This document shows positions 10,105 through 32,963 of a DNA stretch of 55,961 bases, one piece after another; position 1 is the first letter of the stretch; every line of letters starts with the position of its first letter. A program made the translations under genes and the position numbers. Below the pieces are notes generated by a model, which had not been told where the DNA came from, made no database searches, and saw only the letters and a program-made list of their open reading frames with translations. Source of the stretch: a virus; IMG/VR virus record IMGVR_UViG_3300008954_001859, positions 1-55,961 of that record. One strand, 5' to 3'.

Positions 10105-10108
10105 AACA

Positions 10109-13100
10109 ATGGCAGATTTTGTATTAGGAAGAATTAGATTCCAATTTAAAGGCGAATGGACAACAGCCACAGCATACATTAAAGATGATTGTGTGGAGTA
10201 TGGTGGTAATGTTTATGTCGTAAAGGAAAACCACACCTCAAATGCAGATTTTTATGTTGACCTTGCTGCTTCTAAACTAGCAAAGTTTACAAGTGGACAG
10301 GCTTGGAAAGGTGCATGGACCGCAACTACTTATTATAAAGTAGACGAAGTAATTTCTTGGGGTGGTAAGAATTATATTTGTAACACCGGACACACATCAC
10401 AAGCTAGTTTATATGATGATACAGCAAAGTGGACAGAGTATAACTCTGGGTTTGCTTGGAAGGGTGCTTACACAAACGCAACAGATTACAAACTTAATGA
10501 TGTAGTCAAGTATGGTGCATCAACATATATTTGTAACACACAACACACCGCAGGTGCTACATTAGACGAAACTAAATTTGATCTATTTGCTTCTGGTTTA
10601 GAATTTGAGGATTCTTGGGCAGCAGGCACACAGTACCAGTTAGGTGATGTTGTAACTTATGGCGGATACACTTATGCCGCTGTTAGACAAAATGTAGGGG
10701 TTTCTCCTTATAATAATACTTCTGATTGGGAAATATTATCTACTGGATTTAAATTAAAGAGTACATATAATAATTCTACTGCTTATAGTCCAGGTGATGT
10801 TGTAATCTTTGGCGGACATTCATATTCTGCTAAAGTAGATACAACAGGAAACACCCCAGATTCAGCAACACATTGGGAAAAAATTGTAGAAGGCTTTACA
10901 TGGAGAGATAGTTGGACAGACACTACGGTTTATAATCCAGGTGACACAGTTAGTCATCTAGCAAATTCTTATCGTTGTAAGCTTACTCACACTGCTTCAA
11001 ATGGTGTTAATGATCCGGTTACAGACAGTATCGGAACTTACTGGGATGTACTTGCAGAGGGTGATTCGCAGGCAGTATTAACCCAACGGGGTGATGTGCT
11101 ATCACGAAATGCTACTGCAAATTATAGAATTCCTATTGGTACATCCGGACAAGTTCTTAAAGTTGATTCTGCCGGTCAAGAGCCAGAATGGGGTTATTCT
11201 GGTGTTGTTCCTGGTGTGTTTTATGTTGGTAAGAACGGTGCGGATGATGCTACTTCAGGACGAGGAACAACACCTGATAAGCCTTATTTAACAATTAAAT
11301 ATGCTTGTGAAGCATTAGATTCAGCTGCAAAATCTAATCCTGATGCTTCGCTTCGATTAACTAATAATAAAGAATTCCTGAAAGATGAGGTCGTTGCTTG
11401 GATTGCTCAACAGGTATTTCTTAATACTAGCAACCCTGGTTCACCTTGGTATAATTATACATACGACAGTGGTAAGTGCGAAAGGGACGTTGGTTATTTA
11501 ATTGATTCTTTAGACCATGATATGGTCTATGGGGGTAATTCTTGGATCAGACAGTTTGCTATGATGTTTTGGGCAAATGACACTTATCCTGGTGGCCCTT
11601 CTGGTGATACCGCATTAATTGACGGTACACGGGAACCAGAAAAGCTTGTTCACGAAAAATTGCGTGATATTATTAATAACAATATATTCACTGGTACAGC
11701 TTATAGTTCACTACAATCTCCAGTAATAACTACACAGGACACTTCCGGGAACAATGGAGAAGCTGGCACTGATGCAATTATTACTGCTAGTATTTTAATA
11801 GATACTAATGCTTTAGATAGCGGTCTTTCGACTTTGCCTGCACTAGTTACACCAACAACCGATTCTAGAACTTTATTTGTTAGGACCGGTATCTATGAAG
11901 AGCAGTTACCGATTAAAGTCCCAGAAGGTGTTGCCGTTATGGGTGATGAAATGAGAAGTGTTACAGTCAAACCTACTTCCGGTAATTCAGATGACGGTTC
12001 AACACCTAACAACCGCTCTGATATGTTCCAGATGAACGAAAAGACTACTATTCGTGGCATGACCATGACGGGTCTTATCGGTCAGTTGGCATCTGCTTCA
12101 TCTGATGGTCTACAACGACCGACAGAAACAGCAGGCGCTACAAGGTCTGGTGTTGCTGTTGCTCTTGATCCGAACGGACTTGTTTATCTACAGTCACCAT
12201 TTGTTCAGAACGCAGTACACATTAGTTATTCTGGTGCTGTAGGCATTAAGATTGATGGTGGATTACACCCGATGGGTTATGATTCTATTCTTGCTAATGA
12301 CTTCACACAGATATGTGATGATGGTGTTGGTGTTTGGACAAAGAACGCTGGCCGATCAGAAATTGTATCTGTGTTTACATACTATTGTCATATGGGTTAC
12401 CTTGCAGATTCGGGTGGTACAATTCGAGCTGCAAACTGTAACAACTCATACGGAGAATACGGAGCTGTATCTTCTGGTGTAGACCCACTTGAAGTACCTG
12501 CAACAGGTACTGTTAATAACTTAAGCCAACAGGCTATAGTGGGACGAGTACTTGCAGGACATAATACTGCAGGCACAGGTGCTATACAGAGAATCGAATT
12601 TGAATACGCTGGTAATAATTATAACCATGGCGTTGCCGCTACACTAGGTACTTTTGGTGCGGCTCACGGTTCACGAACTCAAGGTTCTTATGTTGCTTGT
12701 ACTCAAGACGCTACAACAGGTTCTGGTACTGGCTTAATAGTTAATATAGATATTGGTAGTTCTGGTCAAGTAACAGGTCATCTCCTAATTAGTGGTGGTG
12801 ATGCTCATGCCGCAACTGATACAATTAGTATCAACGACTCTCAGTTGGGAGGCGGCGGTGCACCTGCACTAACATTTAATGTTGCTACTATAGAAACTGC
12901 TACAATCGCATTTTCTGGTGCAGGCGCTAGTGGGGCTGCTACACTTGCTATCAATGATGGTGGTGTTAGACACGTTGATGTTACAACAACTGGTGAGAAC
13001 CATGTAACAACTACATCGTCTGCTCAGACTGGTACTGCAACAACTATTACTCTTGCTTTGTCAGATACAAACGTAACGGGTTTCTATAATGGAATGAGAA

Positions 13101-17513: not shown

Positions 17514-17536
17514 AATTTTAAACAGGAAAAACAACA

Positions 17537-20203
17537 ATGGCAACAATTGATTTAGGAAAATTAAAGTTTTCATTTGAAGGGGACTGGGATCCTAATATTA
17601 CCTATGAAGTAGGTGATACGGTCCAGCACGGCGGTAAGATTTGGTATTGTAAAAAATCTTATTCCCCAAATTCACATGAAACATTTGCTCCTGGCGATAA
17701 AGGACAGGGATATAAAAATTATAAAACGCTATGGAATTTACGTTCTAAATTTAGCGGACATTTGGAAACAGATGAAGATATTAATGCTTATCATAGCTTT
17801 GATGATACTTCTAATTTTCCTTATAATTATCGACCAGTAGATAACAACCACCAAGTAGAAAGAGTAGATATTGGTGCCGGCGTTATGAAATATTATATTG
17901 ATAGTATTAAAACGCCTGAAACTTTAGGTATTGATGAAAATGGAATGGATGTTTCATTTGCTGAAATGGGTTATTATAGTTTTCATCAAAACGGCCCAGC
18001 TGAAAAGGGGTATCCTTTAGATTTCAGCATAACAGCTGATGGTACTCATAACAGCGGTGTTTCGCTTTGGACATCAGGGGATGATTCGCCTCTTAAATAC
18101 TTTTTAAATAATAAAGAGGTTACCCAGGCACATTATGAAGCAACATTAAACACGACTAGTAGCACCTATCAAGATATAGAAAATTTAAATCGTAAAGTAG
18201 AACTTCATGTTCCTGTTGGATATGAGAAAATTTATCCTTTCTCTAAAACTACTGCAGCAATGTATGATAGTAAAGGAATCCATGTTAATAAAGGTTGGAT
18301 CGGACACGAATATTGGGACTTAATGTCTATGGGTGGAATAAACTATAGAGGAGATTATGATGCTTCAACTCAATATTATTGGGGTGATATAGTATCTATG
18401 AAAAGTCAAGAGTCAAGTAATACTTCTGGTTTTTATAGGGCACTACGAGATAATGTTGGTGCACCTCCATATATGACCAAAGAAATGAATAGAACTCGTT
18501 CCGACTTGATGGCAGATGCTGCAACAACATCAGGACGATCTAAAGATGCTATGGGCAAATATAGTCCAATTCAAAGTTGGCATAATAGTTGGGAACAAAT
18601 TAGTGGTGGTAATAGTAACGATCAGGCAGCTATTTGGGCATCTAATATGGGTCGGATCGCTTGGAAATATAAAGAGCCATTGAACAACCCAGGGACAGGC
18701 ATCTATCGCAATAGAACATTTATTGATAAAAATGGATGCGTGTATTCTTTGGGTTATGGTAGTTCATCAACACCACACACAACTCGTCCGTTAAGTTATT
18801 TTTCGGAAGTAGATTTTGTATTTAGAGATTGGAATGAATCAGGAGATAAAAGTCATTTTGGCCATAATGATCCTAGCATTAAAGGGTTTTCTTCAAACGG
18901 CCGACACACAAATCGAGCTGATAAGAGAAGGACACCTAAGTGTGTTCAGATTTGTCAAGGTTATGATTGGAAGTATTTCCTTTTTGATAACGGAGAAGTC
19001 CAGCATAAAGGTTATGGTGGACACGGCCAGGCGGGCCATGGGCAATTTAGCGATCATTGGATGCCTCAAGTAGGTCAAAACCTACGTGGTGTGTTTATTG
19101 TTAAGATTGCGGCTAACAGTGGTCCAACAGAGACTAATAATCATGCTTGTATGGCTCTTGATGATAAAGGCCAGGTTTGGACATGGGGCTATAATGGCAA
19201 CGGCGAGCTTGGTAGAGGTCGTACCGAGCATTGGGGCTCTCCATTCAAAATTCCTCAAGAATATTTTGAAAACAAACGAGTAATTGATATTGCTTGCTCA
19301 GGACACAGCTCCACAATGGTTGCACGAACTCAAGACGATCATCTGTATGGTTGGGGTTATAATGGTGTTGGCCAACTTGGACAATCCAATACAACAAACC
19401 ATTATCGACCAGTAAAAATTGGTGGTGGTGGGTCAGCTACTAACCAGTGGGATCCAGCAGTGGATGGTATGGCTTGTTGGCAAATTGCTGGGTATAGTGG
19501 CAACACCAGTATTTGGATTTTAGATAATAATGGGTATATATGGCACTCTGGATATAACGGTTATGGTAATTCCGGAGGATCAGATACAACAAACCACCAA
19601 GACGGATGGGTCAAAATGACATCTGCACCTGGTGGTGATATTGTTGATATTTGGGGAATCTCCTGGAACGGTTATGTCGGACTCTTTATAAGAACTAAAA
19701 ACGGCGATACATATCATGCCGGAGCTTCAAGCGGCAATTATCTCGGGTTGGATGGTGCTACTGGATCTGATTATCCACCTTCACTTATTACAAAGATTAA
19801 AAATCTTAAAGATATTGGTACATGCGGAACATATAGTGATGTTGGTCATACTTGGGCTCTTACCGATTCCGGTGAGTTCTTAGGACAAGGCTATGATTCT
19901 TATAATGAAGGTGGCAATCCATATGCAGGCAGCAATTGGACAGGTGAAGATGGCACATATAAGCCATATCACAAGTATATTCCTGCTGGCACGAAAATAA
20001 GTCATGTTATTCCTCAAGGCATATATGAAAGTACCAATTACTTTGGTAATATGCCGTGGGTTATAACAGAAGATGGTCAAATCCTATTATGGGGATTTAG
20101 CGGTTATTCATCTAATGAAGGCAATCACTTAAATGGCCATAATTCATGGTGTTATAACAGTAACAATAATGGACTAATGTCTAATCCTGGCATGGGTCGG
20201 TAA
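17537..20203 (+). CDS. RCC1-repeat tail fibre (paralogue 2)
   Basis: An 888-residue protein starting 24 bases after its paralogue. It begins MATIDLGKLKFSFEGDWDP, the same N-terminal module. A region near residues 95-250 (YYSFHQNGPAEKGYPLDFSI) looks like the cupredoxin-like domain of the upstream gene, but the key His is replaced by Tyr and no C-x2-H-x3-M is seen, so copper binding is unlikely. RCC1 blades follow from about 470: KGYGGHGQAG, WGYNGNGELG, WGYNGVGQLG and SGYNGYGNSG. It is probably an alternative host-recognition fibre arising from duplication and divergence of the same ancestor. Confidence 0.75.
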   Translation: MATIDLGKLKFSFEGDWDPNITYEVGDTVQHGGKIWYCKKSYSPNSHETFAPGDKGQGYKNYKTLWNLRSKFSGHLETDEDINAYHSFDDTSNFPYNYRPVDNNHQVERVDIGAGVMKYYIDSIKTPETLGIDENGMDVSFAEMGYYSFHQNGPAEKGYPLDFSITADGTHNSGVSLWTSGDDSPLKYFLNNKEVTQAHYEATLNTTSSTYQDIENLNRKVELHVPVGYEKIYPFSKTTAAMYDSKGIHVNKGWIGHEYWDLMSMGGINYRGDYDASTQYYWGDIVSMKSQESSNTSGFYRALRDNVGAPPYMTKEMNRTRSDLMADAATTSGRSKDAMGKYSPIQSWHNSWEQISGGNSNDQAAIWASNMGRIAWKYKEPLNNPGTGIYRNRTFIDKNGCVYSLGYGSSSTPHTTRPLSYFSEVDFVFRDWNESGDKSHFGHNDPSIKGFSSNGRHTNRADKRRTPKCVQICQGYDWKYFLFDNGEVQHKGYGGHGQAGHGQFSDHWMPQVGQNLRGVFIVKIAANSGPTETNNHACMALDDKGQVWTWGYNGNGELGRGRTEHWGSPFKIPQEYFENKRVIDIACSGHSSTMVARTQDDHLYGWGYNGVGQLGQSNTTNHYRPVKIGGGGSATNQWDPAVDGMACWQIAGYSGNTSIWILDNNGYIWHSGYNGYGNSGGSDTTNHQDGWVKMTSAPGGDIVDIWGISWNGYVGLFIRTKNGDTYHAGASSGNYLGLDGATGSDYPPSLITKIKNLKDIGTCGTYSDVGHTWALTDSGEFLGQGYDSYNEGGNPYAGSNWTGEDGTYKPYHKYIPAGTKISHVIPQGIYESTNYFGNMPWVITEDGQILLWGFSGYSSNEGNHLNGHNSWCYNSNNNGLMSNPGMGR

Positions 20204-20206
20204 ACA

Positions 20207-20214
20207 TATAAATA
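20207..20214 (+). promoter_or_regulatory. T4-type late promoter box TATAAATA
   Basis: An exact TATAAATA lies three bases after the stop of the second RCC1 fibre and 43 bases before the ATG at 20258, with ATGGAGAA as the ribosome binding site. It would give the last two fibre-region genes their own late transcript. Confidence 0.65.
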
Positions 20215-20257
20215 TTAATAACAAAAAAATATAACTTTTAAATGGAGAATAGTTAAA

Positions 20258-20656
20258 ATGGCGAAGAAGATTTTTAGTCACAAGTCCATTGCCCTTACAG
20301 ATGATTATGTTGCGCCAGTGGTAGCTGATGTAGAAGATACCCCTGTGTTCTTGGCTTCACATGATGATAAGGAATGGTTTTCTTATGATGACGCAAAGGT
20401 AACAGTAACAACAGGTCAGGGAGATTTTGAAGTTACCGTATATGATAAAACCACTGATGCAGCTGCATTAGCGGAAGTAGCTGCGGTGAGTCAGGTCCTA
20501 ATTCGAGGAACGGTGGACATTCAATCAAAACTTACCTTAAATACACCTCTATCGAAATTGTTGCAAGGTATAGTAGATAGTGATGCTGATGTATTAGCAT
20601 CTATCGCTGCAATCGGAACAGAAGAAGAAGAATTTAAAGCAAGTCTTGGATTCTAA
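20258..20656 (+). CDS. Putative fibre-associated structural protein
   Basis: A 132-residue acidic protein with a clear GGAG ribosome binding site. Strand-rich segments (DVEDTPVFLASHDDKEW, AKVTVTTGQGDFEVTVYDK) are followed by helical Ala- and Glu-rich stretches up to EEEEFKASLGF. No family is recognised. Another gene of similar size (9676-10104) lies in front of the large fibre at 10109, and the two could be analogous fibre partners. That parallel is inferred from position. Confidence 0.45.
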   Translation: MAKKIFSHKSIALTDDYVAPVVADVEDTPVFLASHDDKEWFSYDDAKVTVTTGQGDFEVTVYDKTTDAAALAEVAAVSQVLIRGTVDIQSKLTLNTPLSKLLQGIVDSDADVLASIAAIGTEEEEFKASLGF

Positions 20657-20685
20657 AAAATAATTTAAAATAAGGGTAAACAAAC

Positions 20686-22944
20686 ATGGCTTTAGACATT
20701 AATAAATTAAAGTTAACCTGGAAAGGTCCATGGCAAGAACGAACATGGTATGATAAAAATGATATTGTACAATGGCAAGGCAAATCTTATCGGTGTATAA
20801 GAGATAATCCACGAGATTATAGTATTTCATCTGAAGGTACAACAGGCACCACTCACTATAATTTCGAGCATCCCGAAGTCGTTAAATGGTCGTGTCGGCC
20901 GGATAATAAAACTTATTGGGTTGTTCATATTCGCGGCAACGTTGATGTTTCAACATGGGATTATCATCGCCAATATGAAGTTGGAGAAATGTGCAAAGCC
21001 AATGGACATCTTTACCAGTGTATAAAAGGTACTCGGTATAAAAATACTTGGGTAGAAGAAACGGACTATTGGGTTAAAGTATTAGAATCCTCTAGAGGAC
21101 GAGATGGTAGACACGAAGGTATTGCATTTAGAAACAGTGCTCCATTAGGTTGGAAATATAATATGGGCTACAAGATGCACCAGAGTCAACAAATGACTGG
21201 TTATAGTAGCATGCATATTTGTTCTGATGGAACAGTACAGTGCGTTGGTGGTAACGATCAAAATGGATATAATGGCGTTGGCGCCAGCAGTGTTGGTGGT
21301 AGCTCTAATAGAGCTAAACACCATTATCCTGGATTTACTTTCACTGATTGGTTAAATAGTGGAGATAATAGTTCATGGAACACTTTAGCAGCTGCAGCTG
21401 GTGAAGGACTGATTACACCTGATGGTGAAACTCCTCGGGTTGTACAGTGTATAGGTAGTGCCCACAATTCATTCTTCTTAATGAACAATGGAGAGGTTTA
21501 TGGTGCTGGATATAATGGAAATTCACAGTTGGGAGAGCGATCAACATCCGATCGCTATTATCCAGTTCGCTGTGCTGCTGATGACCATATTGATTGGTTA
21601 GGTACTCCAATTGCGAAAAGCTTTAGTGAGACAAAAATAATTAAAATAGAATCCAGTTCAGCTGGAGCTAATACAAGTAGCACTTCTTCTACTATGGCTT
21701 TAGGACAAGATGGTTCTGTTTGGATGTGGGGATATAATAACAACGGTCAATTAGGTTTTGGCAACCCAGATGTAAAGAATAGTGGTGATTTCAACGGTAG
21801 TGGTACAGCTAAAGGTCCTGATGGACAAGATTATACTTATCCAAATACTTGGGCATGGTATAGTTCTAACTTTAGTAGACCAATGCGAATTCCACAATTT
21901 TTCTTTGATGGTAAAATGATCGTAGATATTTACGCTTCTGGTAGCAATGAGGGTAGATTCTGGGCATTAGATGAAGAAGGGTTGCTCTGGGCTTGGGGTC
22001 ATAACAATAACGGCGAACTAGGAGTTGGCCATCGGAATGGTACTTACTATATGCACACTCCTACACTAGTTAGTGTTGATTTCAATTATTATGGCGGACT
22101 TAAAAAATTAGATTTTGTGCCAAGCGATAGTTCAGCGTCTACCGGTTTATTATTCGCATTGGATGGTGAAGGTTGGTTGTGGGCTGCTGGCCATCACAGC
22201 GCAGGCCAGATGCCAGGGTTTAGTAGAATGGGCGGACACGACTCACACCAAATGGGCTCATTTAAACGATTGAATTTCCGACCAAACGGCGACATTGAAG
22301 ATTTTTGGCCAGGTGGTGAAACGGGTTATGAATTCCACTTTACATTCAAACAGAAAAGCACCGGCATGACTTGGACTACATCAGGCAATTACGCTCACGG
22401 CGATTTAGGACACAGTCCGTCTGGTTCTATGTATTGGTATCAATCGACTGGTCATCCTGGACACTTTGTACAAATTAAGGGTCCTCGCTGGACCAAATAT
22501 GCTACTAGTCATAACCATGATGGTGGTGATGGTAGTTATCAATGGACTAGTCCGATATATCTAGACAGTAATGGCGATTGTTGGAGTGGTGGTTATAATA
22601 CTTATGGCTACAAAGGGTTGGGTTACTACGAGGGCAGCAGCAACTCCTGGGGATGGAATAGTGATGAATCTCCTGCTGAGAACTATCCTGATTTTGATCA
22701 GCTGAATTATTCAAATAAACGTCGAGCACTTCTCCCAGCTGGTACTAGAATTATGAATATTGGAGCTTTTGGTTACGCCCACCGGCCAATGCAAGCTTGG
22801 ATGGATGATAGAGGTAAGATGTTGTGGACAGGTAACGATTCCGATTCCCACCGGTCTTGTTTTCACTATAGTTTCTGGGAATACTCAAGAAATGACCAAG
22901 GTCAAGAATCTCAACATGTCATGCACTCCGGACCGTGTGACTAA
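20686..22944 (+). CDS. RCC1-repeat tail fibre (paralogue 3)
   Basis: A 752-residue protein beginning MALDINKLKLTWKGPWQER, the shared attachment module, with a second module near residue 85 (WDYHRQYEVGEMCKANGHLY). It lacks the cupredoxin-like insert of paralogue 1. RCC1 blades run from about 160 to the end: AGYNGNSQLG, WGYNNNGQLG, WGHNNNGELG, AGHHSAGQMP and GGYNTYGYKG. With the two upstream paralogues it gives this phage three propeller-headed fibres that share an N-terminal module and differ in the head. It is the last gene before the pigment operon. Confidence 0.75.
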   Translation: MALDINKLKLTWKGPWQERTWYDKNDIVQWQGKSYRCIRDNPRDYSISSEGTTGTTHYNFEHPEVVKWSCRPDNKTYWVVHIRGNVDVSTWDYHRQYEVGEMCKANGHLYQCIKGTRYKNTWVEETDYWVKVLESSRGRDGRHEGIAFRNSAPLGWKYNMGYKMHQSQQMTGYSSMHICSDGTVQCVGGNDQNGYNGVGASSVGGSSNRAKHHYPGFTFTDWLNSGDNSSWNTLAAAAGEGLITPDGETPRVVQCIGSAHNSFFLMNNGEVYGAGYNGNSQLGERSTSDRYYPVRCAADDHIDWLGTPIAKSFSETKIIKIESSSAGANTSSTSSTMALGQDGSVWMWGYNNNGQLGFGNPDVKNSGDFNGSGTAKGPDGQDYTYPNTWAWYSSNFSRPMRIPQFFFDGKMIVDIYASGSNEGRFWALDEEGLLWAWGHNNNGELGVGHRNGTYYMHTPTLVSVDFNYYGGLKKLDFVPSDSSASTGLLFALDGEGWLWAAGHHSAGQMPGFSRMGGHDSHQMGSFKRLNFRPNGDIEDFWPGGETGYEFHFTFKQKSTGMTWTTSGNYAHGDLGHSPSGSMYWYQSTGHPGHFVQIKGPRWTKYATSHNHDGGDGSYQWTSPIYLDSNGDCWSGGYNTYGYKGLGYYEGSSNSWGWNSDESPAENYPDFDQLNYSNKRRALLPAGTRIMNIGAFGYAHRPMQAWMDDRGKMLWTGNDSDSHRSCFHYSFWEYSRNDQGQESQHVMHSGPCD

Positions 22945-22964
22945 ATAGTTTTTGACTAAATATT

Positions 22965-22997
22965 CTATAGGGGTAGAAGCAATTTCTACCCCTATAG
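22965..22997. terminator. Perfect 14-bp hairpin between fibre and pigment operon
   Basis: CTATAGGGGTAGAA and TTCTACCCCTATAG pair perfectly over 14 base pairs with a five-base GCAAT loop. It sits 20 bases after the fibre stop and 23 bases before the heme oxygenase ATG. There is no T-run on either side, so it is not a standard rho-independent terminator; it may protect the fibre mRNA 3' end, mark a processing site or insulate the operon. Confidence 0.5.
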
Positions 22998-23020
22998 CAA
23001 TAATAAGAGGTTATTATATA

Positions 23021-23587
23021 ATGAATAAGCGTACAGATAATTTACGTTCTTTAACGATGGAAGTTCATCATAAATCAGAACGGCATGAAATAGCAGAACA
23101 AATGTTAAAAGGAGATATTGATCCTGAAACATATGCAGTTTATCTTTGGAATTTATATCAAATTTATGTAGTATTAGAAAATGCAGCTCTTGAATTAAAT
23201 TTAATTAACGAAGATACGCTTCGTTCTTCTAAGTTGTTGGATGATTTTCAAGAATTATGGGACAAAGATTTCCCGGCACCCACCTGTAACACTACAAAAA
23301 AGCATAAAGATAGGATAATAAAAAATTTCCACAACCCCACAATAATTATGGCTCATGTGTATGTTAGACATATGGGTGAACTACATGGTGGTCAAATATT
23401 AAAAAATCAAGTTCCGGGTTCCGGAAAATTTTATGAATTTGATGATGCTAAAACTGCTATAGCTGAAATTGTTTCAAAATTGGATGATAGTATGTATGAT
23501 GAAGCTGTTGCTGTATTTGAATTATCTAATGAACTTTTAGATGAAGTTTTAGAATATCAACAACAAAATAATTTAGGAGTTGAGTAG
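23021..23587 (+). CDS. ho1: Heme oxygenase (biliverdin-forming)
   Basis: The ATG at 23021, after AAGAGG, gives 188 residues; the frame is open from 22952, but that part contains a 14-bp hairpin. TMEVHHKSE (residues 12-20) matches the proximal helix of heme oxygenases with heme ligand His16. YVRHMGELHGGQILK (114-128) matches the distal helix YxRYLGDLSGGQ. The enzyme opens heme to biliverdin IX-alpha, CO and iron using reduced ferredoxin or a similar donor. In the distal helix the usual catalytic Asp is Glu120 and the usual Ser is His122, which is unusual. It heads an operon with a bilin reductase and ALA synthase, so biliverdin should pass straight to the reductase. Confidence 0.85.
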   Translation: MNKRTDNLRSLTMEVHHKSERHEIAEQMLKGDIDPETYAVYLWNLYQIYVVLENAALELNLINEDTLRSSKLLDDFQELWDKDFPAPTCNTTKKHKDRIIKNFHNPTIIMAHVYVRHMGELHGGQILKNQVPGSGKFYEFDDAKTAIAEIVSKLDDSMYDEAVAVFELSNELLDEVLEYQQQNNLGVE

Positions 23588-23881
23588 ATGTTATTTTATA
23601 TAGGACTAACAGTATTTTTGCTGTTGCATATTTTTGTTATGGGGAGACATATTAGCCCATGGTTATTTAATGCTAGATTAAAACTTATTGAAAAATGTGA
23701 ACCTAATGGTGAAGTTAATTTTAGGCTGTACTATTCAATTATAGATGTAGCGTGTATTATTTTAATGTTCATTGGTTGGCAAACAGAATACAAATCTATT
23801 CTTCTATGGTGTATAGGTCTTGGTGCTCTTTACTATTTGGCATTGATTCCTAAATTCATAAAAGATGCTAAACAGCGTTAA
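23588..23881 (+). CDS. Small membrane protein, three predicted helices
   Basis: A 97-residue protein with a TAGGAG ribosome binding site inside the heme oxygenase gene and a start that directly follows its stop. Hydrophobic helices are visible at residues 2-18 (LFYIGLTVFLLLHIFVM), 49-64 and 70-90, joined by a basic/acidic loop, with a Lys-rich C terminus that is probably cytoplasmic. No family is recognised. Its place between heme oxygenase and bilin reductase suggests a role linked to the pigment pathway, such as anchoring enzymes or handling heme, bilin or electrons at the membrane; this is inference. Confidence 0.6.
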   Translation: MLFYIGLTVFLLLHIFVMGRHISPWLFNARLKLIEKCEPNGEVNFRLYYSIIDVACIILMFIGWQTEYKSILLWCIGLGALYYLALIPKFIKDAKQR

Positions 23882-23885
23882 AAGG

Positions 23886-24002
23886 ATGAAAGAAACTTTT
23901 AAATTTTTATTGCAGAGCTATCCAAAATTGAAATCAGATGAATATATTGCTCATCAAATCATGGTAGTGTTTGTTATATTGATTTTATTGTTTATTGCAT
24001 GA
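23886..24002 (+). CDS. Very small single-pass membrane peptide, 38 residues
   Basis: The frame from ATG 23886 to TGA 24002 overlaps the bilin reductase start by ATGA, the classic translational coupling arrangement, and fills the 117-base gap exactly. The product has a polar N-terminal half (MKETFKFLLQSYPKLKSDEY) and a hydrophobic C-terminal helix ([13 protein letters not shown]). The upstream AAAAGG abuts the ATG, so the ribosome binding site is poor and coupling from the previous gene is likely. Function is unknown; it may partner the 97-residue membrane protein. Confidence 0.5.
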   Translation: MKETFKFLLQSYPKLKSDEYIAHQIMVVFVILILLFIA

Positions 24003-24703
24003 GTGTTTTATGGGACAACCTTATATCATTACAAGATGAATTTATAAAAAAATTTGATGATGTAGGTGTTGAAATATTTGAACCGGGTATGGATCATTTC
24101 AACCAACCTGGATGGATGAATAGAGTATGGCAAACCGAGTCAACTAGACGTTGCCATATAGATGTTGTGGATGTTCGTGATACAAAGAAATTATGGATGA
24201 TGCACGTTTGTATTTTTCCTAATTTAGATAATACTAGTCCAATATTTGGCTTTGATGTTATATCAGGTAAAAATAAAATGACAGGAGCTTTCCATGATTT
24301 TTCTGCAACAACAGATAAGAATCATTTTATGATACAGTGGTTTGCCGATTCTGTTTCCAGTTTTGTTCCTAGTAAAAAGAGGTCTTTGCCTGAATGGGCC
24401 TTAAATATATTTTCTCCTTCTATGATTGCTGCTAGTAATGTTAATACAGAAGCAGAATCATTAGATATTATAATGCTAACATTAAAAAACTTAAATTATT
24501 ATTTTGATAATGTATCAGAATCTAATGGAAGGGGAATTGTTCAAGAAGTATCTGAACGCCAAAATTATTATTGTGACAACCAAAAAAAGAATCCACATAC
24601 CCCAAAGGTAATGAAGTCTTTAGGGTTGGATGAAGAAGATGTGAATTTGTTTTGCTCAGATATTTTGTTTCCCCGTATAAATATTGAGCATGATATATCT
24701 TGA
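23999..24703 (+). CDS. pcyX: Ferredoxin-dependent bilin reductase, PcyX-like
   Basis: A 234-residue protein, the usual size for the PcyA/PebS/PcyX family. [18 protein letters not shown] and [18 protein letters not shown] (about residues 67-102) match the family core. His69 and Asp86 are 17 residues apart, the same spacing as the catalytic His88 and Asp105 of PcyA. The enzyme reduces biliverdin with electrons from ferredoxin. Enzymes of this type from uncultured oceanic phages (PcyX) have been reported to make phycoerythrobilin despite resembling PcyA. The gene overlaps its neighbours at both ends, between heme oxygenase and ALA synthase. I cannot tell from sequence alone whether the product is phycoerythrobilin or phycocyanobilin. 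No ferredoxin gene is visible in the window. Confidence 0.85.
24676..24683 (+). promoter_or_regulatory. Internal TATAAATA box before ALA synthase
   Basis: An exact TATAAATA lies in the 3' end of the bilin reductase gene, six bases before the ATG at 24690. If used like a T4 late promoter, the transcript would start at or within one base of the ATG and be leaderless. It also encodes Ile-Asn within the reductase, so chance is possible. Confidence 0.4.
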
Positions 24704-25880
24704 TAAATTTCAGGAAATTATAGAAGGCCTTAAAGAAGAAGGCAACTATAGAGTTTTTAATGATATCCTCAGAGAACGTGGTAAATTTCCGCAAGCAATA
24801 TGGTATTCCAAATACGCTGTTAAACGAATAGTTAATTGGTGTTCAAATGATTATTTGGGCATGGGTCAACACCGTTATGTTATAGATGCAATGCGAACAG
24901 CATTGGAGAGTTCTGGTGCTGGTTCAGGCGGAACAAGAAACATATCAGGCACCACACATTATCATGTTGCTTTAGAACAAGAGTTAGCAGAATTGCACCA
25001 AAAAGAAGCCGCTCTGCTTTTTACTTCAGCTTATATTGCAAATTCAGCAACTTTAGAAACTATGGCTAAAGTTTTGCCTGATATTACTTTTATAAGTGAC
25101 AGTATGAACCATGCATCCATTATTCAAGGAATTCGTCACAGTAGAGCTAAGAAAGAAATTTGGAAACATAATGACTTAAAGCATCTTAAAGAATTACTTG
25201 AAAAAACTCCTGATCCTAAATGTGTTGTTTTTGAATCTGTTTATTCTATGGACGGAGATATATGTCCATTAAAAGAAATTGTAGCATTATGTAAAAAATA
25301 TAAAGCTATAACTTTCCTAGATGAAGTTCATGCAGTAGGCTTATATGGAGAAGGTGGTGGCGGTATTACAGAACGTGATGGTGTTGAAGTTGATATAATA
25401 AACGGAACATTAGCTAAAGCGTTTGGAATACAAGGAGGTTATATTGCTGCTGATAAAGATTTTCTAGATGCTATACGAAGTTTATCTTCTGGATTCATAT
25501 TCACCACAAGTATAAGTCCAGTTATATGTGCTGGAGCCTTGACCTCTGTTAAGTATGTTAGAGACCATAACAGCTTAAGGCTTACTATGCAAGAGCGTTC
25601 CCAAAAAACTAAAGAAGAATTGGAACGAAATGGTATAAGCGTAATGAAAAATCCATCACATATTGTTCCTGTTATTATAGGTGATGCAACAAAATGTAAG
25701 AGAATTAGTGATGATTTATTATATAAGGATGGGATTTATGTACAACCTATAAATTATCCTACCGTAGCAAAGGGTACCGAACGATTAAGGTTTACTCCAG
25801 GACCTTTTCATACGGATTTAATGATATATGATATGGTAATTAAGTTGAGGGATGCAATGCGACACAACGAAATTTTATAA
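24690..25880 (+). CDS. hemA: 5-aminolevulinate synthase (Shemin pathway)
   Basis: The ATG at 24690 gives 396 residues, close to alphaproteobacterial ALAS; a TTG two codons earlier is less likely. [27 protein letters not shown] and [20 protein letters not shown] are ALAS signatures. The PLP Schiff-base Lys is K243 in NGTLAKAFG, and D211/H214 in FLDEVHAVG contact the cofactor. It condenses glycine and succinyl-CoA to ALA, the first tetrapyrrole precursor. BioF and glycine C-acetyltransferase are the same fold, but the C-terminal [14 protein letters not shown] segment favours ALAS. It ends the pigment operon and should raise heme supply for the heme oxygenase. Shemin-type genes have been reported in aquatic phage sequences. 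Confidence 0.9.
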
Positions 25881-25906: not shown

Positions 25907-26257
25907 ATGTCACTAATTAATAATCTAGTCGTTGAAGCTGATGCAGATTTCTCGGTTTCTGTAGAATTGACAAATGAAGATGCTGATGGAAACATCACAG
26001 TCCTTGATTTAACTGGTTATACCGCTTTAGCTCAAATACGAAAACGATACGGAACTAGCTCCGCATCTGAAACCTTTACTATTGCTTGGCCCGCAGATAG
26101 AACTACTGGGAAATTAGAGCTTGGATTGACTGACACACAAACTGGTAACCTCAAAGACGGTAGATATGTTTGGGATTTACAATTAACCGATTCTTTAGGA
26201 ATTAAAACAAGAACTTTAGAGGGTAGGTTAGTAGTTCAGCCTTCCGTTTCTAGATAG
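25907..26257 (+). CDS. Putative baseplate or fibre-linked beta-sandwich protein
   Basis: A 116-residue protein. The layout FSVSVELTNEDADGNITVLDLTGY, then ALAQIRKRYGTSSASETFTI, then GRYVWDLQLTDSLGIKTRTLEGRLVVQP is the common N-terminal beta-sandwich of phage baseplate upper and fibre-attachment proteins. It would form part of the virion, possibly linking the long fibre at 26506 to the baseplate. It starts its transcription unit behind a late promoter and is followed by a 77-residue protein and the giant fibre. The family name is uncertain. Confidence 0.55.
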   Translation: MSLINNLVVEADADFSVSVELTNEDADGNITVLDLTGYTALAQIRKRYGTSSASETFTIAWPADRTTGKLELGLTDTQTGNLKDGRYVWDLQLTDSLGIKTRTLEGRLVVQPSVSR

Positions 26258-26272
26258 GGAGAATAAAGGGAT

Positions 26273-26506
26273 ATGGCTACTAGTTCATCTGGTACTACAC
26301 TAAAAGCAAAAGTAGTAAAGTCACAATTAAAGCTTAGAACTTTAACGGATTCTAATTTTGGCACATTATCAGCTGCTGATGATAATAAAGTTGTGTTTTA
26401 TGATGCAGCAACAGACTCTTGGAAATTGAAGGACCTTATCACAGACGTAGATTATACGGTTCTTACATCTACAGGCTCTATTGTGTTTGATGGGGGAACA
26501 TTTTAA
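26273..26506 (+). CDS. Small fibre-cluster structural protein
   Basis: A 77-residue protein whose stop overlaps the first base of the giant fibre gene. It is Thr- and Ser-rich with LRTLTDSNFGTLSAADDN and ends TSTGSIVFDGGTF; the last few residues resemble the ending of the giant fibre itself (VIDGGTY). No family is recognised. Its position and the tight coupling suggest a fibre assembly partner or tip-like peptide. Confidence 0.5.
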   Translation: MATSSSGTTLKAKVVKSQLKLRTLTDSNFGTLSAADDNKVVFYDAATDSWKLKDLITDVDYTVLTSTGSIVFDGGTF

Positions 26507-29500
26507 TGCCCACTATATCAAAATTTCTAATAAAAAGGTCTTCCGGAAATACAGCTCCTACCGATTTAAAATCGGGGGAAATAGCTTATACATGGGGAGG
26601 TGCTACAGCATCTAACGGCGGCCAAAGATTTTTTATTGGTGCAGGAGATGAGTATCCTACAGGCCCCGGCGGAGAATTAGAAGCTGAATTTGTACATACA
26701 ATTGGTGGTAAGTATTTCACCGATTTGTTAGATCATATTCGAGGACAAGTTTCTCCAGATTCTGCTTTAATAGTTGATGAAGATAAAAAATTAAACGAGC
26801 TTAGGGTTGATAGGGTAACTATAGATGGAAATAATGTCGGTATCTTCCATGAATATACCTCAGGCGGACACTTAAACATTGATGCTCAAGGCACACAAAA
26901 TCTAAATCTAGGAACACTTACAAGCGGTTCTGTTGTTAAGATTGGTAATGCAACTTCAGAAACTACTGTTCAAGATAATCTCACAATTGCTGGAGATTTG
27001 ACAGTTTCTGGCAGTTCTCTTTTCTCTGGTGATTTAGCCCTTTCTGGTGCTGTAGATATTACTGGTGACCTTGATGTTGATAATATCAATTTAAATGGCA
27101 ATGCTATTACAACTACGACAGGTGCATTATCTATAGACCCTAACGGCACTAATGCTTTACAGTTAGGAACAGCAACTAGTGGTTCTGTAATTTCAATTGG
27201 TCATTCCGTATCAGAAACAACTATCAATGATAATCTAACCGTTACTGGAGATTTGATTGTTAATGGTACCCAAACAACTCTTAATGTTGCAACCATTACA
27301 GTAGACGATAAGAATTTAGAATTATCGGCAGTAGATACTCCTACTGACGGTATAGCGGATGGCGGTGGTATCACCCTTAAAGGCACTACAGACAAAACTA
27401 TACTTTGGCAAAATGCTGATAATAGATGGCATTTCAATCAAGGTATTGATATAGATTCTGGTGATCTTATTGTTGATGGCACAACAACATTAAATTCAGA
27501 TTTAGATTTTAATTCTTCAAATATTGATGTTTCAACACAAGCAACAGATATTAATATTATTGATAACAGTGCTACAGCTCTTACTATTTCTGAAGGTGTT
27601 ACAAATTATGCTGTATTTCATACCACAGATTCCGGTGAGAAAATACAATTTCTTAAAGATGTAGATATAGATTCTAATGTAGAAATTTCAGGTACCCTTA
27701 CAGTTGAAGGATTATCAACTCTTAATGGCGGCACATTAACTTTTGGTGATGCCGACACAGATAATGTGGTGTTTGGTGCTGATGTTAATTCTAATATTAT
27801 ACCCAATTCAGACAGCACATTCGACTTAGGTACCGCCACAAAAGAATGGAGAAATATCTATATTGACGGCACAGCTCACATTGATACATTAGATGTAGAT
27901 GAGAACGCGGCCATAACAGGCACGTTAGGAGTTACTGGTGCTACTACTCTAAGTTCCACATTAGGTGTGACTGGTGTTTCGACACTAAACGACCAATTAA
28001 ATGTTAATGCTCCTGTGGAGATAGCAGGTGCAAGTTCGTTTATACATCTACCAGATGATACAGAAATTTATATAGGAACAAGTAATGATTTATCTTTTTA
28101 CCATGATGCTACGGATTCCTATATTACAAACAAAACAGGCTCATTAAAAATTGCTACAGAAACTTCTGGTGTTCCTGTTTCAATAGGTCATGGAACATCA
28201 GAAACTACTATCAATGATAATCTCACAGTATCAGGTAATGCAACCGTAACCGGCAATCTTACCGTTGAAGGATTATCAACACTCAATGGTGGCACATTAA
28301 CACTAGGTGATGCTGCTACAGATAATGTGGTGTTTGGTGCTGATGTTAATTCTAATATCATTCCTAATACAGATGGTGCTTATGATTTAGGTGCTGCTAC
28401 ACAAGAATGGAAAGATTTATATTTAGATGGCACAGCCCATATTGATACGTTAGATGTTGATGTTAATGCTACAGTTGCTGGTACATTAGGAGTAACTGGT
28501 GCTACTACTCTAAGTTCCACATTAGGTGTTACTGGTGCTACCACACTGAGCGATACATTAGATGTTACTGGTGCTACAGGTATAGACGGCGACTTTGACA
28601 TTAATACAAATAAATTTAATGTTGCTGCAAGTTCAGGTGATACTGACATTGCTGGTACATTAGACGTTGTTGGTGCTACAGGTATAGATGGTGATTTTGA
28701 TATTAACACCACTAAGTTTACTATTGCAGCTGCAACTGGTAATACAGATACCGCTGGTACATTAGGTGTTACTGGTGCTACCACACTGAGCGATACATTA
28801 GATGTTACTGGTGCTACTACACTGAACGACACATTAGATGTTACTGGTGTAATCACGACAACAACTCATGTTGATATGCCAGATAACGCTAATATTAAAT
28901 TAGGTACAGGCGACGACTTACAGCTGTACCATGATGCTACAGATTCCTATATTACAAACACAACGGGCTCATTAAAAATTGCTACAGAAACTTCTGGTGT
29001 TCCTATTTCAATAGGCCACGGAACATCAGAAACAACAGTTAATGACAATTTAAATGTTGCCGGCAATTTAGATGTAACAGGAAATGCAACCGTAACCGGC
29101 AATCTTACCGTCGAAGGGCTTTCAACTCTTAATGGCGGCACACTAACTCTTGGTGATGCCGATACAGATAACGTGGTCTTTGGTGCTGATGTTAATTCTA
29201 ATATCATTCCAAATACAGACGGTGCTTATGATTTAGGTTCAGCAACTCAAGAATGGAAAGACCTCTATATAGATGGTACAGCACACATTGATGATTTAGA
29301 TGTTGACAATAACGCTACTGTTGCTGGTACATTAGGGGTAACTGGTGCTACTACATTAAGTGATACTCTAGATGTTACAGGGGTAATTTCAGCAACAACT
29401 CATGTCGATCTACCAGACAATGCAAACCTCAAGTTAGGTACTGGTGATGATTTACAACTCTACCATGACGGTACAGATTCGCATATTGACAATACTACAG

Positions 29501-32148
29501 GAACATTAAATATTGCTACTGCAACTTCTGGTGGTCCTGTGTCGATTGGCCACACGGTGTCAGAAACTACCATCAATGATAACTTAACCGTTACAGGTGA
29601 TGCTACAATCAATGGTGCTACATTAGACGTTAATGCTGATGTGGAGATTGATGGTACATCAACAATAACTGGTGCTGTAGATATTACAGGTGATCTTGAT
29701 GTTGATAATCTCAATCTTAATGGTAATACAATCATATCAACAGACACTAATGGTCACATTAATCTCACACCAGATGGTTCTGGTACAGTTATAGTTGAAA
29801 GTGCTGTTCTTAATACAGATGTTGCTGGTACTGCTGTTTTAGATGACGATACTTTTGCAACTGCATCAAGTACAACCCTTGCTACATCCGAAAGTATTAA
29901 AACATACGTTGACACACAGATTACAGCTGAAGATTTAGACCTTACTACAGACAGTGGCACAATAGCTATTGACTTAGACTCTGAAACGCTATCTATTGTT
30001 GGTGGTGAAGGTGTAGATACTTCTGCTACAGGAAACATTGTAACTATAACCGGCGAAGATGCTAGCACGTCTAATAAGGGTGTGGCATCCTTTGATGCAA
30101 CACATTTCGATGTTACGGCCGGGGCAGTAAATATACAGGCTGATGCTATTGATGATACTCTTATTGATTGGGGTACAGGTACAAATCAGGTCAGCACAGA
30201 TGATGTACCAGAAGGTGCAAGTAATCTTTGGTATACAGATGAACGTGTTGATGACCGTGTAAGTAACCTAGTTGTTGATGGTGAAGGTATCACCACAACT
30301 TATAACGACAGTGCTGGTACATTTACCATTGATGCAGAGGACGCTACAGATTCTAACAAGGGTGTGGCATCGTTTGCTAATACTGATTTTACAGTAACAA
30401 CTGGTGCAGTTGGTATTAAGGCACTTGGTGTATCTAATGCACAACTTGCTGGTTCGATTGAGAATGCTAAACTAGTCAATTCTACTATAGTATTGGGTAG
30501 TGATACAGTTAATCTTGGCGATACGATTACAGATGTTAATGGTCTAACACAATTAGATGTAGACAACATTAGAATAGATACCAACACGATTAGTTCTACA
30601 GATGCAAATGGAGATATTGTATTAGATCCTAATGGAACTGGATCAGTAGATGTTAACAGTGCAAGAATTATTAATCTTGCAGAACCAACTCAAACAACGG
30701 ATGCTGTTACTAAACAATATGTCGATGCAGTAAAGAGTGGTCTTGATATTAAAGATTCTGTAAGAATGGCTACAACAGCTGATTTGTCGGGCACATATGC
30801 TAACGGCACATCTGGTGTTGGTGCAACATTGACTAACAATAGTACCCAGGCTGCATTTGCAGTAGATGGTGTTACAGCATCTCTTAATGATAGAGTGCTG
30901 GTTAAAGATCAGACTGCACAGGCTGAGAATGGTATCTATACAGTAACAACACTTGGTGATGGTTCTACAAATTGGGTATTGACTAGAGCTACAGATGCTG
31001 ATGGTGATCCATCACAAGAACTAGATGGTGGAACATTTGTATTTGTTGAAGAAGGTACCATTGGACAAGATAATGGATACACATTTACTCATAATGGTGT
31101 ACCAACAATCGGAACGACTGCTCTACCAGTAGCGCAGTTCTCTGGTGCAGGACAAGTAATTGCTGGTGATGCATTAACCAAAACAGGTAACACATTAGAT
31201 GTTGCAGTAGATAATGCATCTATTGAAGTTGTTGCTGATGCGTTGCAAGTTAAGGCCTTAGGTGTAACTAATTCAATGCTTACTGGTTCTATTGATAATA
31301 ATAAATTATCTAATAGTTCAGTAACAATAAACAGTCATTCACTGTCCTTGGGTGGCACATTAACACTAGATACAGATGATTTTGCTGAGGGTACAAACAT
31401 ATTCTTCACTAATGAAAGGGTTGATGACCGCATTAATTCTTTGGTACAAGATGGTGAAGGTATTACCACAACATATGATGATGTTGCCAATACATTCACA
31501 ATAGCTGCTGAAGATGCTACAGACACTAATAAAGGTGTTGCATCGTTTGCCAGTGGGGACTTTGCAGTAACAACTGGTGCAGTTGCGATTAAGTCCTCTG
31601 GTGTTGATAACGCACAGTTGGCTAATGATTCTGTTACTATTAACGGTAACGTTATTGCATTGGGTGGTACATTAACTCTAGATTCTGATGATATTGCTCA
31701 GGGCTCTACAAACTTATATACAAGTCCAGAAGCTATTGATGATCGGGTATCTCAGTTGGTACAAGATGGTGAAGGTATTACTACAACATATGATGATGCA
31801 GCTAATACATTTACGATTGCAGCTGAAGATGCTACAGACACTAATAAGGGTATTGCTACGTTTAACACGGCAGATTTTAGTGTAACTAGTGGTGATGTTA
31901 CTATTAAGAGTTTAGGTGTAACAAATGCCCAACTTGCAGGTAATATAGACTTAACTACGAAGGTAACAGGCACTCTGCCAATGTCAGAGGGTGGTACTGG
32001 AGTCACTACATTAACAGCTAATGGTATCCTTTATGGTAACAATGGTACGGATATACAAGCAACAGCAGAAGGAACAGATGGTTACTTCTTATATTCAAAC
32101 TCTGGGACTCCAGATTGGACTAATGTAATAGATGGTGGAACATATTAA
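26506..32148 (+). CDS. Giant repetitive tail fibre, 1880 residues
   Basis: The N terminus (KFLIKRSSGNTAPTDLKSGE, then HTIGGKYFTDLLDH) is the attachment module of fibre proteins in marine T4-like phages. Residues about 130-1100 are built from short beta repeats of the type LxVTGATTLSxTLDVTGATTL and SETTINDNLTVTGD, which would form a long trimeric shaft. From about 1200 to 1700, units such as DDRVSxLVxDGEGITTTYxD and SNKGVASFxxxDF alternate. The end, TLPMSEGGTGVTTLTANGIL followed by ILYGNNGTDIQ, resembles many phage fibre tips. It is probably the main long tail fibre. Long antisense open frames across this region are a by-product of the repeats. Confidence 0.8.
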   Translation: MPTISKFLIKRSSGNTAPTDLKSGEIAYTWGGATASNGGQRFFIGAGDEYPTGPGGELEAEFVHTIGGKYFTDLLDHIRGQVSPDSALIVDEDKKLNELRVDRVTIDGNNVGIFHEYTSGGHLNIDAQGTQNLNLGTLTSGSVVKIGNATSETTVQDNLTIAGDLTVSGSSLFSGDLALSGAVDITGDLDVDNINLNGNAITTTTGALSIDPNGTNALQLGTATSGSVISIGHSVSETTINDNLTVTGDLIVNGTQTTLNVATITVDDKNLELSAVDTPTDGIADGGGITLKGTTDKTILWQNADNRWHFNQGIDIDSGDLIVDGTTTLNSDLDFNSSNIDVSTQATDINIIDNSATALTISEGVTNYAVFHTTDSGEKIQFLKDVDIDSNVEISGTLTVEGLSTLNGGTLTFGDADTDNVVFGADVNSNIIPNSDSTFDLGTATKEWRNIYIDGTAHIDTLDVDENAAITGTLGVTGATTLSSTLGVTGVSTLNDQLNVNAPVEIAGASSFIHLPDDTEIYIGTSNDLSFYHDATDSYITNKTGSLKIATETSGVPVSIGHGTSETTINDNLTVSGNATVTGNLTVEGLSTLNGGTLTLGDAATDNVVFGADVNSNIIPNTDGAYDLGAATQEWKDLYLDGTAHIDTLDVDVNATVAGTLGVTGATTLSSTLGVTGATTLSDTLDVTGATGIDGDFDINTNKFNVAASSGDTDIAGTLDVVGATGIDGDFDINTTKFTIAAATGNTDTAGTLGVTGATTLSDTLDVTGATTLNDTLDVTGVITTTTHVDMPDNANIKLGTGDDLQLYHDATDSYITNTTGSLKIATETSGVPISIGHGTSETTVNDNLNVAGNLDVTGNATVTGNLTVEGLSTLNGGTLTLGDADTDNVVFGADVNSNIIPNTDGAYDLGSATQEWKDLYIDGTAHIDDLDVDNNATVAGTLGVTGATTLSDTLDVTGVISATTHVDLPDNANLKLGTGDDLQLYHDGTDSHIDNTTGTLNIATATSGGPVSIGHTVSETTINDNLTVTGDATINGATLDVNADVEIDGTSTITGAVDITGDLDVDNLNLNGNTIISTDTNGHINLTPDGSGTVIVESAVLNTDVAGTAVLDDDTFATASSTTLATSESIKTYVDTQITAEDLDLTTDSGTIAIDLDSETLSIVGGEGVDTSATGNIVTITGEDASTSNKGVASFDATHFDVTAGAVNIQADAIDDTLIDWGTGTNQVSTDDVPEGASNLWYTDERVDDRVSNLVVDGEGITTTYNDSAGTFTIDAEDATDSNKGVASFANTDFTVTTGAVGIKALGVSNAQLAGSIENAKLVNSTIVLGSDTVNLGDTITDVNGLTQLDVDNIRIDTNTISSTDANGDIVLDPNGTGSVDVNSARIINLAEPTQTTDAVTKQYVDAVKSGLDIKDSVRMATTADLSGTYANGTSGVGATLTNNSTQAAFAVDGVTASLNDRVLVKDQTAQAENGIYTVTTLGDGSTNWVLTRATDADGDPSQELDGGTFVFVEEGTIGQDNGYTFTHNGVPTIGTTALPVAQFSGAGQVIAGDALTKTGNTLDVAVDNASIEVVADALQVKALGVTNSMLTGSIDNNKLSNSSVTINSHSLSLGGTLTLDTDDFAEGTNIFFTNERVDDRINSLVQDGEGITTTYDDVANTFTIAAEDATDTNKGVASFASGDFAVTTGAVAIKSSGVDNAQLANDSVTINGNVIALGGTLTLDSDDIAQGSTNLYTSPEAIDDRVSQLVQDGEGITTTYDDAANTFTIAAEDATDTNKGIATFNTADFSVTSGDVTIKSLGVTNAQLAGNIDLTTKVTGTLPMSEGGTGVTTLTANGILYGNNGTDIQATAEGTDGYFLYSNSGTPDWTNVIDGGTY
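27000..29750 (+). repeat. Shaft repeats and three long cassette copies in the giant fibre
   Basis: Short units ending in GVTGATTLSxTL recur many times. A longer cassette, TVEGLSTLNGGTL followed by NVVFGADVNSNIIPN, occurs three times, starting near 27700, 28260 and 29105, with strongly similar DNA. Such near-identical repeats allow recombination that would shorten or lengthen the shaft. Confidence 0.75.
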
Positions 32149-32963
32149 TGGCTATACCAAATTCTAAATCTACATTGAAGGATTGGTGCTTGCGAAAATT
32201 AGGAGCACCTGTTTTAGAAATTAATGTTGATGACGATCAGGTCGATGATCGGATTGATGAAGCGCTTCAATACTTTTATACTTTTCAGTATAGTGGTATG
32301 GAGCGTGTATATCTTAAACATTTAATTACAGAAGCTGATGTTGCTAGATCCGGTACAGATGAAACGGAAACTTCAACTGATATATCGGATTCAGGAATAA
32401 CAACAGATTGGAAAACAGGGAAGGGATTTTTAGTAATGCCTGATGCGGTTCAAAGTGTGTTAAGAGTTCTGCCGTTTAGTGATAGAGGCAATCTTAATAT
32501 GTTTGATGTTCGTTATCAGTTAAGATTAAATGACCTCTATGATTTTTCATCCGAATCAGTTATCCACTATCAAATGACCATGTGGCATTTAGATTATTTG
32601 GATATGATTTTAATAGGAGAAAAGCCTTTACAGTTTAATACTCATAAGAATAGGCTTTATATTAATATGGATTGGGGTGATGATGTTCAGGTAGGAGAGC
32701 ATATCATTATAGAATGTTATCGAAAATTAGATCCTACAACCTGGACAGACGTATATGATAATTTATGGCTAAAAAAATATACAACAGCTCTCATAAAGAA
32801 ACAGTGGGGTGAGAATCTTATTAAGTTTCAAGGAGTAACAATGTTGGGCGGAGTTTCCATGAACGGTGAAACGATATATAATGAGGCTAAGGAGACAATT
32901 CAAAAATTAGAAGATGAATCAAGAACTACTTGGGAAGAACCACTCCACTTTGACATTGGTTAA
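32148..32963 (+). CDS. 13: Neck protein, T4 gp13-like
   Basis: A 271-residue protein overlapping the fibre stop by one base. The N terminus KSTLKDWCLRKLGAPVLEIN followed by an acidic DDDQVDDRIDEALQYFYTFQY is typical of gp13 in marine T4-like phages, as is CYRKLDPTTWTDVYDNLWLKKYTTALIKKQWG. In T4, gp13 and gp14 close the filled head and form the collar to which the tail joins. The gene begins the classic 13-14-15-16-17 order, which supports the call. Confidence 0.85.
   Translation: MAIPNSKSTLKDWCLRKLGAPVLEINVDDDQVDDRIDEALQYFYTFQYSGMERVYLKHLITEADVARSGTDETETSTDISDSGITTDWKTGKGFLVMPDAVQSVLRVLPFSDRGNLNMFDVRYQLRLNDLYDFSSESVIHYQMTMWHLDYLDMILIGEKPLQFNTHKNRLYINMDWGDDVQVGEHIIIECYRKLDPTTWTDVYDNLWLKKYTTALIKKQWGENLIKFQGVTMLGGVSMNGETIYNEAKETIQKLEDESRTTWEEPLHFDIG

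Follow-up and report, generated by a model that had tools for sequence, protein, structure and literature searches.

A late-region cassette in a T4-like virus that may feed and drain the host heme pathway for a reduced bilin

Why should a virus whose host is plausibly non-photosynthetic carry, side by side, the enzyme that begins heme synthesis and the enzymes that turn heme into a bilin? The question is raised by IMG/VR record IMGVR_UViG_3300008954_001859, a virus record of 55,961 bases with no further contig, which was analysed over its whole length and is called the window here. On its + strand, at 23021-25880, lie five abutting or overlapping open reading frames (ORFs) for a heme oxygenase (HO), two small membrane proteins (TM1 and TM2), a PcyX-like bilin reductase and a Shemin-pathway 5-aminolevulinate synthase (ALAS); HO and TM1 meet with a 0-nt gap, and the junctions that follow overlap by 17, 4 and 14 nt. 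We read these genes as a late-region auxiliary cassette of a T4-like marine phage that feeds and drains the host heme pathway for a reduced bilin, most likely phycoerythrobilin (PEB), and give this reading a probability of roughly 0.58.

From the genes, their families, key residues, selection and gene company we infer the following flow. ALAS, without the heme-feedback residues of the R. capsulatus enzyme, would pull glycine and succinyl-CoA into 5-aminolevulinic acid (ALA), which host enzymes would convert to heme; HO would open heme to biliverdin, freeing CO and iron, and PcyX would reduce the biliverdin using host ferredoxin. Relatives of the phage would reinforce other steps of the same line with HemB, HemC, HemE and HemF. 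The first-pass annotation of this DNA had called the operon complete, a description that goes too far: of the pathway it encodes just the start and the finish, and searches of the window gave no match to the HemB, HemC, HemD, HemE, HemF or ferrochelatase families, protoporphyrinogen oxidases and HemN lying outside those searches.

Identity of the three enzymes

The gene identities proposed at the outset held for all three enzymes. ALAS (24690..25880, +, from an ATG preceded by an additional in-frame TTG at 24684) scores 574.7 bits against TIGR01821 (5aminolev_synth; cut-off 338.55), while the models for bioF, glycine C-acetyltransferase (KBL) and serine palmitoyltransferase all remain under their cut-offs, which removes the concern that this pyridoxal phosphate (PLP) enzyme might belong with BioF/KBL. 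Its PDB matches include 7x98 (E 5e-134) and 2bwn (E 2e-126), and the PLP lysine that had been pointed out is retained as K245 in NGTLAKAFG, invariant in all eight phage ALAS aligned. Lys337 aligns with His342 of R. capsulatus ALAS and no Cys occurs beyond residue 338; the window enzyme is without both His342 and Cys400, as is expected of the phage enzyme vAlaS.

The reductase (23999..24703, +, 234 aa; PF05996, E 7e-17) finds its best PDB match in PcyX 5owg (E 1.1e-75), the best PcyA reaching only 8.6e-11, and it is a member of the ferredoxin-dependent bilin reductase (FDBR) family, nearer PcyX than PcyA, and not the outsider that had been named as a possible outcome. Asp55, His69 and Asp86 align with their counterparts in 5owg. 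The 17-residue spacing of the His/Asp pair, already remarked on, recurs in 82 of 82 PcyX relatives, and Asp occupies position 55 in 81 of them, L092 having Glu. As Asp55 is the PcyX-specific residue according to Wegner et al. (PMC11480375), PEB is the predicted product.

HO (23021..23587, +, 188 aa; PF01126, E 5.3e-18) is divergent, with PDB relatives at E 1e-9, and its predicted model is confident (pLDDT 92.6). This model superposes on rat HO-1 (1dvg) with Z 22.0 and a root-mean-square deviation of 2.2 Å over 180 residues, TenA-like proteins ranking far lower (Z 15.7 vs 22), and the proximal His16 is invariant across 13 of 13 aligned sequences. Family, fold and proximal His are those of an HO-1-type enzyme; the catalytic distal Asp of GDxxGG (Asp140 in human HO-1) is not, being replaced by Glu120 in GELHGGQ. 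The distal Glu is confined to the window lineage (L002, L003 and L004), three of 79 HO loci, with Asp in 74 and the motif not found in two. The change is a conservative one, and the PDB includes a D136E mutant of HmuO. HO adjoins 79 of the 82 PcyX genes, the remaining three PcyX lying at contig edges.

All five cassette genes show fewer amino-acid changes per site than silent changes per site between the window and its relative L004, the ratio of the two (dN/dS) being 0.26 for HO, 0.13 for TM1, 0.33 for TM2 (based on just 5 changes), 0.18 for PcyX and 0.06 for ALAS.

Heme-synthesis genes in related phages and the purpose of the cassette

Whole-record searches covered 51 records, namely the window and 50 loci picked for length and variety from about 87 contigs; PcyX is carried by 48 (the window and 47 of the picked loci). 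ALAS was found in 14 of the 51, HemE in three, and HemC, HemB and HemF in two each (one HemF with an internal stop), with HemD in none. ALAS is present in 12 of the 48 PcyX records, and 14 of the 48 show one or more of ALAS, HemB, HemC, HemE and HemF; the 14 include three from the lineage of the window itself (G000, G002 and G003), and in G009 the ALAS gene contains a single internal stop. Ferrochelatase was considered as a further added step and rejected: PF00762 matched nothing in the 51 records, Pelagibacter phage Mosig EXVC030M (MT647606) included and HTVC008M outside the search, and Mosig_00059, which like a gene of HTVC008M is named a ferrochelatase, gives just a weak Fe2+-dioxygenase match. 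Pelagiphage genes annotated as ferrochelatase lie at L001 8357-9127 and L122 12071-12712, a doubtful label given that the Mosig gene fails the family.

Two arrangements extend the line between its ends. The sister contig L005, whose PcyX and HO are 82% and 42% identical to those of the window, holds HO-PcyX-HemE-HemC and an Asp/Asn hydroxylase-like gene (9346-13112) in the slot that the cassette occupies in the window, between an RCC1 fibre gene and the LtfC-like gene. Its HemE overlaps PcyX by 4 nt; HemC scores above the NCBIfam cut-off, and HemE matches TIGR01464 at E 4e-54, below the strict cut-off. The arrangement is known from this one contig, which alone was recovered by scans with its HemC and HemE as queries. 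The second arrangement is a run of HemF-HemC-HemE-HemB on G016 (L113 4656-8185), with ALAS about 8 kb further on. Since this four-gene run is present on 12 of the 13 IMG/VR contigs having HemE or HemF (G016, L220-L241), it is no assembly accident. Compared with 50,697 named phage records, its proteins matched 12 records for HemE, 10 for HemC, two for HemF and nine for HemB, at 38% identity or less; none of these is a marine phage, and many resemble bacterial sequence.

Such company bears directly on the proposal that the cassette serves iron release, in which HO frees host-heme iron for the phage or for its many Fe(II) oxygenases and PcyX removes the biliverdin. Wegner et al. (PMC11480375) mention iron supply as one option, and 2-oxoglutarate-Fe(II) oxygenases lie near the HO-PcyX pair of Mosig, with relatives in 47 of 89 PcyX loci (a set that includes repeat copies of the window's contig). 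Existing heme, however, yields iron without any ALAS, and an operon that also encodes ALAS, HemC or HemE would rebuild heme and retake the iron; by our own reasoning ALAS and HO together would give no net iron, because each new heme takes one iron and HO returns one. Heme-synthesis genes beside HO-PcyX, once in the same operon, thus speak against a cassette that serves nothing but iron release, a reading we consider decidedly unlikely. Where HO-PcyX shares an operon with ALAS or HemE-HemC, through-flow to a bilin would therefore be favoured, and bilin output probably explains such gene sets better than iron release alone.

The same genes could be taken to serve heme upkeep, an idea that Wegner et al. 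(PMC11480375) put forward for vAlaS: ALAS would sustain respiratory heme during host shutdown while HO-PcyX separately cleared heme that is damaged or in surplus, or free porphyrin products, the bilin being detoxified waste. HemB, HemC, HemE, HemF and ALAS do all lead to heme, and ALAS stands alone in several phage stretches. What makes this account somewhat improbable is that HO-PcyX is directly coupled to ALAS in one case (the window) and to HemE-HemC in another (L005), and that upkeep creates no need for a reductase after HO. A role in signalling or stress, by which CO, the bilin or heme removal would affect host regulation or protect against oxidants, draws on the ClpS-like and Hsp20-like genes of 72 and 64, respectively, of the 89 PcyX loci (families confirmed on one representative each), placed just before HO-PcyX, for example in L021, L026 and L114. 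Neither gene belongs to the window cassette, and a gene neighbourhood is by itself no demonstration of function; we regard this role as very improbable.

Several observations weigh against the reading of the cassette as a feed-and-drain line to a bilin. In the window HO itself, Glu replaces the catalytic Asp, and PcyX expressed in a cyanobacterium yielded less than one-tenth of the PEB of other systems (PMC13197396). None of the five heme-synthesis families was found in 34 of the 48 PcyX records, mostly fragments, and Fer2 ferredoxin was found in one record and not in the other 50 of the 51. On G016 the heme genes lie about 30 kb from Hsp20-ClpS-HO-PcyX, and on G021 about 25 kb from HO-PcyX; the remaining 11 carriers of the four-gene run show neither HO nor PcyX in the stretches examined, and ALAS also occurs in phage stretches with no HO/PcyX nearby. 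Phycobiliproteins are missing, as had been observed: the Phycobilisome family (PF00502), the sole bilin-binding family searched, matched none of the 51 records, phytochrome and lyase families lying outside the search. On balance, heme-synthesis genes beside HO-PcyX suggest that the aim is a bilin or the passage of metabolites along the pathway, and they make the question of purpose more testable. More tentatively, it is possible that several marine phage lineages assemble their own ALA-to-bilin line, each supplying whichever steps are limiting in its host, and that PEB is wanted for a non-light-harvesting use in non-photosynthetic hosts.

A separate source for the window ALAS

The window ALAS is 74.4 and 73.1% identical to the enzymes of two Pelagibacteraceae (SAR11) metagenome bins, L133 and L134, and at most 62.1% identical to phage ALAS beyond its own lineage. 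In L133 and L134 the neighbours of ALAS are, by eye, what we take to be UbiH-like, NAD-kinase-like and HemN-like proteins, surroundings that look chromosomal. In the ALAS tree the window and L083 group with these bins (100/98), apart from a 14-row clade (100/99) made up of most other phage ALAS and five bacterial-bin rows, several of which have phage-like neighbours. A single phage ALAS clade was rejected by an approximately unbiased (AU) test (p-AU 0.0005; 0.0017 without L092), run after the tree was known and with two SAR11 rows only, both found by patterns biased to the window ALAS. The tree drew on loci L133-L199, L199 being lost to a length filter; the 13 loci L200-L212 were left out, including L209, a 102-residue Pelagibacteraceae fragment with 75% identity, and the 46 rows of the AU test also omitted most Bacteroidota rows, L160, L197 and L198.

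Because the window enzyme groups with the SAR11 bins and one phage ALAS clade is rejected, it looks like a capture separate from the main phage ALAS clade, with a SAR11-like source. Such a capture would point to selection having favoured this step more than once, and it offers a clue to the host. Traffic may also run the other way: an ALAS in a Neisseriaceae genome (PsAf; L137 3007-4194), among bacterial-looking neighbours, branches within the main clade of phage ALAS, as it would had a phage been its donor.

Virus type and host

The window is T4-like, as first described. Its gp13 comes closest to those of HTVC008M and Mosig (58-59%), and its terminase has cyanophages as best BLAST matches (64-66%). 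A tree of six joined structural proteins unites the window with L004 and L005 (100%) and sets six cyanophages in a separate group (100%); the backbone branches on which its position relative to HTVC008M, Mosig and Melnitz depends are supported at 31-57 only. As a candidate Kyanoviridae-like phage of heterotrophs, it would accordingly lie outside the sampled cyanophages, with a tentative place among phages of SAR11 and OM43 at those branch supports. The psbA family (PF00124) had no match in the 51 records, mostly fragments. A cyanobacterial host seems unlikely and one among the heterotrophs plausible, so that the non-photosynthetic host assumed in the first-pass annotation stands as a plausible one, with the terminase matches favouring cyanophages.

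The further suggestion that this gene combination newly fixes the virus type did not survive, since the pelagimyophage placement by gp13 had been published in 2024 (PMC11480375). A tblastn search with 11 of the T4-like structural genes (head and tail) of the window also found nothing in about 95 of the 107 kb of the PcyX contig G016.

The membrane pair

TM1 (23588..23881, +) has 97 aa with three hydrophobic stretches, and TM2 (23865..24002, +) has 45 aa with a single hydrophobic stretch at its C-terminus. TM1 belongs to phrog_31495 (E 1.4e-10) and has distant relatives in five of 50,697 phage records (E up to 0.01), among them cyanophage S-SSM6a and marine virus AG-345-F15, which share the motif FVMxRHxSPW and gave no match to HO or PcyX. 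TM2 has no Pfam or PHROG match and accompanies TM1 in L004 and L096. On L096 the pair (9945-10465) has neither HO nor PcyX within the 18.5 kb examined; the 23 bases ahead of it are identical to the HO end, 21 of the 23 behind it agree with the start of PcyX, and the stretch so looks like a cassette that dropped HO and PcyX but retained the membrane genes. The two genes are part of the operon, as had been said, and their membership of the pathway is unlikely: they probably ride along as passengers that serve some use of their own. A heme-binding, NnrU/Z-ISO-like role for TM1 was also considered and was rejected: Pfam stays under cut-off (E 0.004; L096 copy 21.3 vs 24.7 bits), and relatives in L213 and L214 have no NnrU match and carry Glu in place of His14. 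The predicted model of TM1 is poor (pLDDT 55.9).

Surroundings of the cassette

The cassette sits between fibre genes, as originally placed. Upstream is an RCC1-repeat fibre-like protein (20686..22944, +; PF00415, E 7.6e-11), and downstream (25907..32963, +; PHROGs) follow an LtfC-like fibre-assembly gene, a small ORF, a 1880-aa fibre-like protein and the gp13 neck protein. In all, three RCC1-repeat, probably propeller-bearing fibre proteins lie upstream at 14922-22944, two with weak CBM5/12 matches; to our knowledge, RCC1 repeats are unusual in phage fibres.

Between the RCC1 fibre gene and HO lies a stem-loop with a 14-bp stem (22965..22997, +) and no T-run after it. The stretch 22945-23021 folds at -25.9 kcal/mol (z -5.3; 0 of 200 shuffles equally stable), and palindromes likewise precede HO in L004 and L005; the element may be a terminator-like or processing hairpin. 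The word TATAAATA, which we take to be the T4 late-promoter word, occurs 11 times on the + and four times on the - strand of the window. A late promoter for HO was rejected, as none stands directly before that gene; one copy within pcyX, at 24676-24683, ends 6 nt ahead of the ALAS ATG and may be chance. As to defence, the five cassette proteins gave no PADLOC match. Elsewhere the window encodes a phage SET-domain protein (6025-6687; PF00856, E 2e-13) and three radical-SAM-like genes (2484-4630 and 6680-8689), the last of which also matches a B12-binding domain weakly.

Comparison with known systems

The core combination of three enzymes has a published precedent and is no novelty. Wegner et al. 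2024 (PMC11480375) describe hemO-pcyA/X-valaS in marine and freshwater contigs as whole, broken and single sets, assign these contigs to pelagimyophage-like phages via gp13, report vAlaS, vHemO and vPcyA of the CB_2 phage as active, and call the co-occurrence of bilin genes and alaS enigmatic, with apparently non-photosynthetic hosts. Their cassette is like that of the window in its three enzymes, their order and the T4-like, pelagimyophage-related genome, and their vAlaS likewise keeps the PLP lysine and has lost the heme-feedback residues. The window differs in having two membrane ORFs between HO and PcyX, and in an ALAS outside the main phage clade, unlike the one phage clade apart from bacteria that they report.

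Among named phages, Mosig resembles the window in carrying HO-PcyX directly upstream of gp13, with 51% identity for PcyX and 32% for HO, and is unlike it in having no ALAS in its whole record, where the HemB, HemC, HemD, HemE, HemF and ferrochelatase families also had no match. The closest structural counterpart of the reductase is PcyX_EBK42635 (5owg), with which Asp55, His69 and Asp86 are shared. For the intermediate steps, Zaragoza-Solas et al. 2020 (PMC7029224) report coproporphyrinogen oxidase and porphobilinogen deaminase in a deep-water pelagimyophage, and their passage on heme genes makes no mention of bilins, ALAS, HO, hemE or hemB; a mostly title-level check of the literature found no paper linking such phage heme-synthesis genes with phage bilin genes. 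The hemO-pcyA-alaS island of Bradyrhizobium ORS278 (PMC11480375) likewise joins the three activities, and it differs in being bacterial, in adjoining a phytochrome gene and in making phycocyanobilin. Set beside these systems, the separate ALAS capture, HemE-HemC in the sister slot and the four-gene run are the new variants described here.

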